Shown in pieces: positions 24,885 through 32,799 of a stretch of 32,799 bases of DNA. The notes beneath the pieces were generated by a model. That model was given only the letters and a program-made list of their open reading frames with translations, was not told the origin of the DNA and ran no database searches. The stretch's first letter is position 1. Each line of letters begins with the position of its first letter. The position numbers and the translations under genes are program-made. The DNA is from Deltaproteobacteria bacterium (lineage in GTDB: Bacteria; Myxococcota; Myxococcia; Myxococcales; UBA5297), in contig JACRCT010001018.1 of assembly GCA_016218885.1 (NCBI GenBank), positions 1-32,799 of the forward strand, in the 5' to 3' direction.

Positions 24885-26312
24885 TCAGGCGATGGCCGCG
24901 CCCTTGGCTCCCTCGAGGTCGGGGTCGATGCCGTACTCCTTGACCTTGTAGAGCAGCGCCCGGTGGCTGATCTCCAGCAGCTCCGCGGCGCGAGTGCGGT
25001 TGCCGCGCGTCTTCTGCAGAGCGCGACGGATGAGATCCTCCTCCAGCGCTCGCGAAGCCTTCTTGATGGAGAGATCGCCGCCCGCGGGCGCTCCCGCCTG
25101 GCCCTGGGCGCCCCCGGCTGCAGCCGCCCCGGCCTTGGGCGCGAGGACCAGCTCCGGCAGCAGGTCGAGGGTGATGATCTCCCCGTCGCAGAGGACCATC
25201 GCCCGCTCGATGGCGTTCTCCAGCTCACGCACGTTGCCCGGCCAGGCGTAGTCGTGCATCAGCTGCAGGGCATCGGGGGCGACCTCCCCGATTCGCCGCC
25301 CCAGACGCGCGTTGTACTTGGCGATGAAGTGCCGCGCGAGGAGCTCGAGGTCGTCCTTGCGCTCGCGCAGGGGCGGCAGGCGCAGGTTGAGGACGTTGAG
25401 CCGGTAGTAGAGGTCCTCGCGAAAGGCGCCTCGCGCCACCTGCTGCGGCAGGTCGCGCTTGGTGGCGGCGATGACTCGCACGTCCACCTTTTCGCTGCGC
25501 GAGTCGCCCACGCGGCGGATCTCCTCCTCCTGCAGCACCCGCAGCAGCTTGACCTGCAGCTGCTGCGGCAGCTCCCCCACCTCGTCCAGGAAGAGCGTCC
25601 CGCCGTCGGCCTCGGAGAACAGGCCCTTCTTGTTGCGCACGGCGTCGGTGAAGGCGCCCCGGACGTGCCCGAACAGCTCGCTCTCCATCAGCTCGCCGGG
25701 GATGGCGCCGCAGTTGACCGCCACGAAGGGCATGGCCGCGCGGGGCGAGAGGTCGTGCAGCGCGCGGGCGACCAGCTCCTTGCCGGTGCCGCTCTCCCCG
25801 CTGACGAGCACGGTGGTCTTGACCTGGGCCACCTTGCGGATCTGCCGGGCGACCTCCTGCATCGGCGGGCTCGTCCCCACCAGGCTCTCCAGCCGGAAGG
25901 CGCGGCTGAGCTCTCCGCGCAGCCGCTCGTTCTCGCGCTTGAGCCGCTCACGCTCCTCGGCCTTGCGCAGCACCAGCACCACCTCGTCGGGCTTGAAGGG
26001 CTTGCTGATGTAGTCGTAGGCGCCCTCCTTCATCGCCGTGATGGCGGTGTCGGTGGTCCCGTAGGCGCTCATCACCACCACGGTGAGCTCGGGCTGTCGC
26101 CGGTGGATCTCCTTGAGCAGCGCGATGCCGTCCATCTTGGGCATGCGCACGTCGGAGAGGACCACGTCGTAGTCGCGCGCCTCGATCTCCTTGAGCCCCT
26201 CCTCGGCGCCGGGCACGCCGCGGACTTCGTAGCCGCGGTCCTTGAGGATGACGGTGAGCATGTGCCGCATGCTGTCGTCGTCGTCGACGATGAGGACGTT
26301 CTGGAAGCGCAT
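24885..26312 (-). CDS. NtrC-family sigma54-dependent response regulator, PilR/PilR2-like
   Basis: REC domain NVLIVDDDDSMRHML...VVLSDVRMPKMDG; AAA+ GESGTGKELVARALH, GAFTDA, GGTLFLDEVGELP; Fis-type HTH GNRTRAAELLEISHRALLYKVKEYGI. Confidence 0.93.
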   Translation of the reverse strand: MRFQNVLIVDDDDSMRHMLTVILKDRGYEVRGVPGAEEGLKEIEARDYDVVLSDVRMPKMDGIALLKEIHRRQPELTVVVMSAYGTTDTAITAMKEGAYDYISKPFKPDEVVLVLRKAEERERLKRENERLRGELSRAFRLESLVGTSPPMQEVARQIRKVAQVKTTVLVSGESGTGKELVARALHDLSPRAAMPFVAVNCGAIPGELMESELFGHVRGAFTDAVRNKKGLFSEADGGTLFLDEVGELPQQLQVKLLRVLQEEEIRRVGDSRSEKVDVRVIAATKRDLPQQVARGAFREDLYYRLNVLNLRLPPLRERKDDLELLARHFIAKYNARLGRRIGEVAPDALQLMHDYAWPGNVRELENAIERAMVLCDGEIITLDLLPELVLAPKAGAAAAGGAQGQAGAPAGGDLSIKKASRALEEDLIRRALQKTRGNRTRAAELLEISHRALLYKVKEYGIDPDLEGAKGAAIA

Positions 26313-26320
26313 GGTGGTTC

Positions 26321-27721
<1,401 letters not shown>

Positions 27722-29491: not shown

Positions 29492-29974
29492 CTAGTAGAC
29501 GTCTTCGGCCGTCACCCTTGAAACCGTATCTTCCGCGCTTGCTCCGCACACGGTAGCGACGGCGCCCTTCTGATATCCCCAGCAGGCAAACACGGCATTG
29601 CCGTCCACATCCGATCGGGCACCGATGCCAACCGCGGTTTCCGACGCATTGATCACGCTGTACTCGAAATAGACCATGCCCTCGGGACGCCACGCGAGAG
29701 TGTCGAAGCCACCACAGGCGCCGGGCGCTGGCCACGCCGCCTTGCTGGGGGTGGGAGCGCCAGGCAGGGCAGCTGCGTTAACGAACCAGTCATTGGTGCC
29801 CTGGTACGAGACCTCCGATGTGCGGATGGCGCCCACATTAATCGATCCCTCCTGCCTCTTGGTGCGCAACTGGTACTTGAGGAAGTTCGGGATGGCGATG
29901 GCCGCCAGGATGCCGATGATGGCGACAACGATCATGAGCTCGATCAGGGTGAAGCCGCGGGCCAGCTTCTTCAT
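29492..29974 (-). CDS. pilA: Type IV prepilin, PilA-like
   Basis: [44 protein letters not shown]: type IVa prepilin with G|FTLIE cleavage site. ATG 29974 inside ORF 29492-30184. Confidence 0.88.
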
Positions 29975-30019: not shown

Positions 30020-30040
30020 GCCCTCCAACTTCTGGAGGGC
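30020..30040 (-). repeat. Perfect inverted repeat in pilA leader
   Basis: GCCCTCCA-ACTTC-TGGAGGGC; 8-bp arms, 5-nt loop. Confidence 0.85.
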
Positions 30041-30062: not shown

Positions 30063-30078
30063 AGCAACGGATGTGCCG
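30063..30078 (-). promoter_or_regulatory. Sigma54 -24/-12 promoter of pilA
   Basis: - strand CGGCACATCCGTTGCT versus TGGCAC-N5-TTGCW; GG and GC separated by exactly 10 nt; predicted TSS ~30052. Confidence 0.75.
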
Positions 30079-30143: not shown

Positions 30144-30164
30144 AGGTGACGCGTTTTGTCACCT
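30144..30164. promoter_or_regulatory. Palindromic operator 1 (candidate enhancer site)
   Basis: AGGTGAC-GCGTTTT-GTCACCT, perfect 7-bp arms. Confidence 0.65.
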
Positions 30165-30174
30165 TCTCGGGCCC

Positions 30175-30195
30175 AAGCGACCAAACGCGTCGCTT
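30175..30195. promoter_or_regulatory. Palindromic operator 2 (candidate enhancer site)
   Basis: AAGCGAC-CAAACGC-GTCGCTT, perfect 7-bp arms; reverse-oriented spacer matches operator 1 (AAAACGC vs CAAACGC). Confidence 0.65.
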
Positions 30196-30252
30196 TCCCT
30201 GCTCCGCGGAAGAGGTAGAATCCGGCGGCTTCCGCACGCGGAGAGTCGAACG

Positions 30253-31212
30253 ATGCCCGAGACCGTTCTCACCACAGAAGACCTCAACAAGACGTTTAGG
30301 CTCGGCCTGAAGCGCCGGGTGGTCGAAGCCGTTCGCGGGCTGTCGCTCACTGTGGAGAAGGGCGAGATCTACGGCTTCCTGGGCCCCAACGGCGCCGGCA
30401 AGAGCACGACCATCAAGATGCTGATGGGTCTCATCTTCCCCACCTCTGGGACTGCCCGCATCTTCGGGCAGCCCATCCCCTCCAAAGATGCCATGCGCAG
30501 CCTCGGGTACCTCCCCGAGAACCCCTCCTTCCATGAGTTCTTCACCCCCGAGGAGCTGCTCTGGTTCTTCGGCAGGCTCTGCCAAATGCCCTCCGGTGTC
30601 ATAGCCGACCGCATCCCGATGCTGCTCGACTTGGTTGGGCTCCAGACCTTCGCCAAGGTGCCGCTGCGGCGCTTCTCCAAGGGCATGGTGCAGCGCGCCG
30701 GCATCGCCCAGGCACTGATCAACGATCCGGCCCTGGTGGTGCTCGACGAACCCATGAGTGGCCTGGACCCCATCGGTCGCAAGGACGTGCGGGACATCAT
30801 CTTCCGCCTTCGCGAGCAGGGAAAGACGGTCTTCTTCTCCACCCACATCCTCCCCGACGTCGAGGCCATCTGCGACCGGGTGGGGCTGATGCTCAAAGGC
30901 GAGCTGAGGGCGCAGGGTAAGCTCGAGTCCTTGCTCACGGCCCACACCCGCGCCGTCGACGTCATCGCCGAGCGGGTCCCCGTCCAGCTTGCCGAGCTGC
31001 TCAAGGCTCGCGCCAGCCGTACCGTCCCCAAGGGCGACGGGTTCGCCTTCACGTTCCTGGAGGAGGGCCATGCTGACGAGGCGGTCGCCACGTTGGCCGG
31101 GGCAGGAGCGCGCTTGGCGCAGGTAACCCGGCACCGCGAGACGCTCGAAGACCTTTTCGTCCGGATGGCCAAGGAAGCGGGCCAATCAGGGGTGGGTGGA
31201 AAGGTCGCCTAA
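30253..31212 (+). CDS. ABC transporter ATP-binding protein, PilH-like
   Basis: [15 protein letters not shown]; Walker [10 protein letters not shown], signature FSKGMVQR, Walker [14 protein letters not shown]. Pil context suggests PilH. Confidence 0.9.
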
Positions 31213-31294
31213 GAGCCGTCTTCCACAGGACCTGAGCGCAGCGAGCCCGATCGAGTGTCCTCAGACCAGAGGCCGCCAGGCCCCCTTTGCCCCC

Positions 31295-32799
<1,505 letters not shown>

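Follow-up and report, generated by a model that had tools for sequence, protein, structure and literature searches.

Paired palindromes upstream of a myxobacterial pilA gene: a probable PilR-type upstream activating sequence

In a genome of the order Myxococcales (Deltaproteobacteria bacterium, assembly GCA_016218885.1), two palindromes, here called Dyad I and Dyad II, probably constitute a paired upstream activating sequence of pilA, to which PilR would bind in order to activate transcription in a sigma54-dependent manner. On the basis of sequence comparison, we give this reading a probability of about 85%. The palindromes are located in a stretch of 32,799 nucleotides (contig JACRCT010001018.1, forward strand), referred to below as the window, whose relevant features are the following:

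24885 to 26312, minus strand: NtrC-type response regulator, PilR2-type, with receiver, sigma54 activation, and Fis HTH domains
26321 to 27721, minus strand: histidine kinase, PilS2-like by position, adjoining the PilR2-type regulator
29492 to 29974, minus strand: pilA, type IV major pilin, with its start codon at 29974
30064 to 30078, minus strand: predicted sigma54 -24/-12 element of pilA, CGGCACATCCGTTGC, the best candidate in the region
30144 to 30164, no strand: Dyad I, AGGTGAC-GCGTTTT-GTCACCT, proposed PilR dimer site, centre 30154
30175 to 30195, no strand: Dyad II, AAGCGAC-CAAACGC-GTCGCTT, proposed second PilR dimer site, centre 30185
30216 to 30221, plus strand: TAGAAT, possible -10 of the ABC gene (a weak inference, with no good -35)
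30253 to 31212, plus strand: divergent ABC transporter ATPase, pilH-like (PF00005), with its ATG at 30253

The Palindromes and the pilA Promoter

An earlier note on this DNA had described two perfect 7-7-7 palindromes, and both are present to the letter. When the two sites are read in opposite orientation, their spacers agree at 6/7 bases, in keeping with the near-identity claimed for them, and their centres are indeed 31 bp apart. Against the TGAC-N7-GTCA core that is seen where PilR adjoins pilA, Dyad I agrees at 8/8 bases and Dyad II at 6/8, with GAC and GTC retained in the latter. A scan of the window's own genome with the joint motif of the two sites, which the same note had proposed as a check, found fewer than three mismatches only at the two dyads.

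From the sigma54 element, the pilA transcription start site is predicted at about 30052, and the dyad centres thus fall at about -102 and -133, as had been calculated. Both lie in the range expected for dyad-symmetric enhancer sites, roughly 70–200 bp upstream of a -24/-12 element, and the 31-bp separation is close to a whole number of helical turns, as expected for sites that act as a pair. An alternative sigma54 site, TGGCAGTAGCAGCTGCC, which would move Dyad I to about -127 and into the register of the relatives described below, was considered and set aside; its spacer of 11 bp is non-canonical. In addition, a perfect 8-5-8 inverted repeat, GCCCTCCAACTTCTGGAGGGC, occupies positions 30020–30040 of the window, in the predicted pilA leader between the start site and the start codon, where it could form a hairpin.

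A single perfect 7-7-7 palindrome is unremarkable in the window, which contains 18 of them in all, whereas a pair in the intergenic region is unusual: in 0/3000 dinucleotide shuffles did two such palindromes fall within this 280-bp region.

Conservation of the Dyad Core Upstream of pilA

The core was searched for in two sets of pilA regions: 20 upstream regions from Myxococcota genomes of the same order as the window, and 34 regions from Geobacterales. For the latter, the PilR HTH was used to search public genomes, which yielded many Geobacter, Geomonas, and related loci, many of them with pilA in the fetched flanks. TGAC-N7-GTCA occurs without mismatch in 12/20 Myxococcota regions (shuffle mean 0.04), with at most one mismatch in 17/20 (shuffle mean 1.4), and without mismatch in 27/34 Geobacterales regions (shuffle mean 0.125), although such comparisons with shuffles overstate the number of independent cases, since the relatives are phylogenetically linked. 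The length of the spacer is kept: with 5, 6, 8, or 9 bp in place of 7, no perfect match was found among the 20 Myxococcota regions, and a spacer of 6 gave one perfect case among the 34 Geobacterales regions. Seven more perfect dyads were found at additional, re-oriented minus-strand loci.

The aligned sites share preferences beyond the bases used as the search seed. R is found at -2, followed mostly by G/C directly before TGAC, and the spacer tends to begin with R, to end with Y, and to be A/T-rich in the middle. Copies in the relatives are often paired, at distances of 22 or 30–33 bp. When the dyad was combined with a promoter element (dyad, 66–96 bp, TGGCAY-N6-TGC), the pattern was present in 47/195 Myxococcota genomes, against 4 matches for a reversed control pattern; many of the matches in Anaeromyxobacter-type genomes adjoin the ABC gene, that is, they are at pilA. 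A different pattern, GGTGACG-N5-CGTCACC with one mismatch, gave many matches order-wide and was dropped as unspecific. Among the genomes matched by the combined pattern are four large ones of relatives (G066, G087, G088, and G089), in which TGAC-N7-GTCA dyads occur as pairs before sigma54-like sites.

The phylogenetic footprinting that had been suggested for this intergenic region thus finds the dyad core conserved with sigma54 pilA promoters in both Myxococcota and Geobacterales, and this conservation is stronger evidence than the rarity of the pair among shuffles. The 18 palindromes of the window might suggest that the dyads are functionless products of chance in GC-rich DNA. Such an origin is extremely improbable in view of the shuffle result for the intergenic pair and of a conservation that crosses phyla with the 7-bp spacer fixed.

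Target Gene and Binding Protein

The position of the dyads between two divergent genes raises the question of which of them they serve. They may serve as operators through which some regulator controls the ABC gene, or as a common switch linking this gene to pilA, the second being a possibility raised in the earlier note. Only 57 bp separate the end of Dyad II from the ABC start, and the dyad overlaps the place where a -35 would fall upstream of TAGAAT; a TTTGACA element of the ABC gene is 27–32 bp away from the dyad in most loci of the Anaeromyxobacter type; and in Pseudomonas aeruginosa it has been proposed that PilR bound at pilA helps the divergent pilB promoter (PMC6058289). However, among the divergent loci the dyad can be as near as 27 bp or as far as 65 bp from the ABC promoter-like element, whereas its distances to the sigma54 promoter of pilA form a small number of classes that differ by about one turn, which argues that the element belongs to pilA. 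Moreover, the dyads are still upstream of pilA in Myxococcus-like genomes, where pilA and a downstream ABC gene are co-directional, and in Geobacterales, where pilA is near pilR. Because they are retained even where the ABC gene is not divergent, the dyads are best read as a pilA enhancer; the proposed coupling is unsupported, and a role in controlling the ABC gene is very unlikely.

Two further observations concern the ABC side of these loci. In Anaeromyxobacter-type genomes, the ABC genes (L013–L026) have TTTGACA and GATCAT-like elements very near the start codon, which suggests a leaderless or near-leaderless transcript. In the window, the ABC ATPase is followed by an ORF of 396 aa (31196–32386), for which no Pfam match was found even at E values up to 10 and no NCBIfam match at 0.01.

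The earlier note had also recognized in the two sites the geometry used by an NtrC-type enhancer-binding protein (EBP), and had named the EBP encoded at 24885–26312 as a candidate. The first part of this proposal agrees with a conserved upstream activating sequence at a sigma54 pilA promoter; the second is unsupported. The protein, whose gene neighbours a histidine kinase, pilM, and pilN and whose C-terminal HTH is LEISHRALLYKVKEYGI, looks like PilR2, while an HTH of the PilR type, LTFRSMRYRLAKLGL, is encoded elsewhere in the window's own assembly (contig C776, positions 384–551; L173), as a C-terminal fragment of a gene that is cut by the start of the contig. PilR genes that adjoin pilA encode a C-terminal FRS-x-RYR helix (FRSMRYR-type); pilR is immediately upstream of pilA in two relatives (G033 and G005), and the two genes are close together in the Geobacterales loci retrieved by the PilR HTH search.

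PilR is not the only protein to be considered: the PilR2-type EBP could bind the dyads, either by itself or jointly with PilR. Its gene is about 4 kb away and encodes a complete NtrC-type EBP, Fis HTH included, and Geobacterales genomes with the dyad also contain PilR2-grade matches, so that presence alone does not decide the binder there. Nevertheless, its recognition helix is unlike the FRSxRYR of PilR, and one relative (G015) has kept the dyad and PilR with a best match to the window's EBP of only 49%, that is, without a PilR2-grade protein. In Myxococcus xanthus, whose cluster contains two pilRS sets (PMC6060248), motility requires both PilR and PilR2, but of the two it is PilR that pilA expression is reported to need (PMC6211767). 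Sequence evidence thus points to PilR as the likeliest binder of the dyads; the PilR2-type protein is less likely in this role, and its participation, alone or with PilR, would be unlikely.

Helical Register

In the relatives, dyad centres cluster at about -107, -118, -129, and -141. The window pair is displaced from this register by about 4–5 bp, i.e., a third to half of a helical turn: the phase of the two centres departs from the mean by 0.63 turn and 0.68 turn, respectively (taking 10.5 bp for one turn, and depending on a promoter that is predicted rather than mapped). This offset, the two departures of Dyad II from the core, and the fragmentary state of PilR in the assembly count against the reading of the pair as a PilR enhancer. 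The shared register is a trend found in this analysis and is no established defining feature of PilR enhancers. The shift would mean either that another pilA promoter is used or that this lineage tolerates it.

A broader and more doubtful proposal is that TGAC-R-(A/T-rich)-Y-GTCA represents one PilR code, common to Myxococcota and Geobacterales and kept in register with the pilA promoter. The pair of this lineage, shifted by a third to half of a turn, would then have PilR act from another face of the DNA or on a different pilA promoter, and might also affect the divergent ABC gene.

Proposed Mechanism

Direct observation covers the sequences and the fact that they are conserved, the spacing of the pair, the sigma54 element as predicted, and a PilR-type HTH in the assembly; from these we infer binding, the identity of the binding protein, looping, and activation. 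PilR is a sigma54 activator whose HTH is of the Fis type. One PilR dimer would occupy each dyad by way of the GTGAC half-sites, and the A/T-rich spacer would lie at the centre of the site. With the two dimers separated by three helical turns, the AAA+ ring of PilR would assemble more readily; it would then contact RNA polymerase-sigma54 at 30064–30078 by DNA looping, and this contact would lead to open-complex formation at pilA.

Significance and Comparison with Known Systems

The dyads of the window are most likely a well-conserved, ordinary control element, one more PilR-type pilA enhancer with a sharply defined consensus. The analysis defines precisely the consensus and spacing of a site that probably mediates the control of the main pilin by PilR, both in myxobacteria and in the relatives of Geobacter, two groups of interest for social motility and for iron reduction linked to pili. 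It also makes PilR, and not the PilR2-like protein encoded nearby, the first candidate for experiments.

Paired enhancers of the NtrC type consist of two dyads about three turns apart, roughly 100–130 bp upstream of the -24/-12 element. The window's pair is similar in pairing and placement, whereas its arm sequence is different and is attributed to PilR, not to NtrC. The pair also resembles the PilR-dependent enhancers at the sigma54 pilA promoters of Myxococcus and Geobacter, which have upstream TGAC-N7-GTCA dyads, often paired, as in the window; this likeness is one between the genome sequences examined here. The window differs from these in its divergent arrangement of pilA and the ABC gene and in the unusual register of its dyads.

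A literature search for a PilR binding site at the pilA promoter with TGTC, which did not cover the primary mapping papers, found nothing. According to PMC6058289, PilR enhancer sites at pilA are already known from work on P. aeruginosa and G. sulfurreducens. The P. aeruginosa sites are described there as NifA-like TGT-N11-AGA and GTCT elements, a printed consensus that differs from that of the window (the comparison being with the published description). Features common to both systems are the placement of EBP sites before a pilA promoter of the sigma54 type, a similar overall length, and GTC-containing half-sites.
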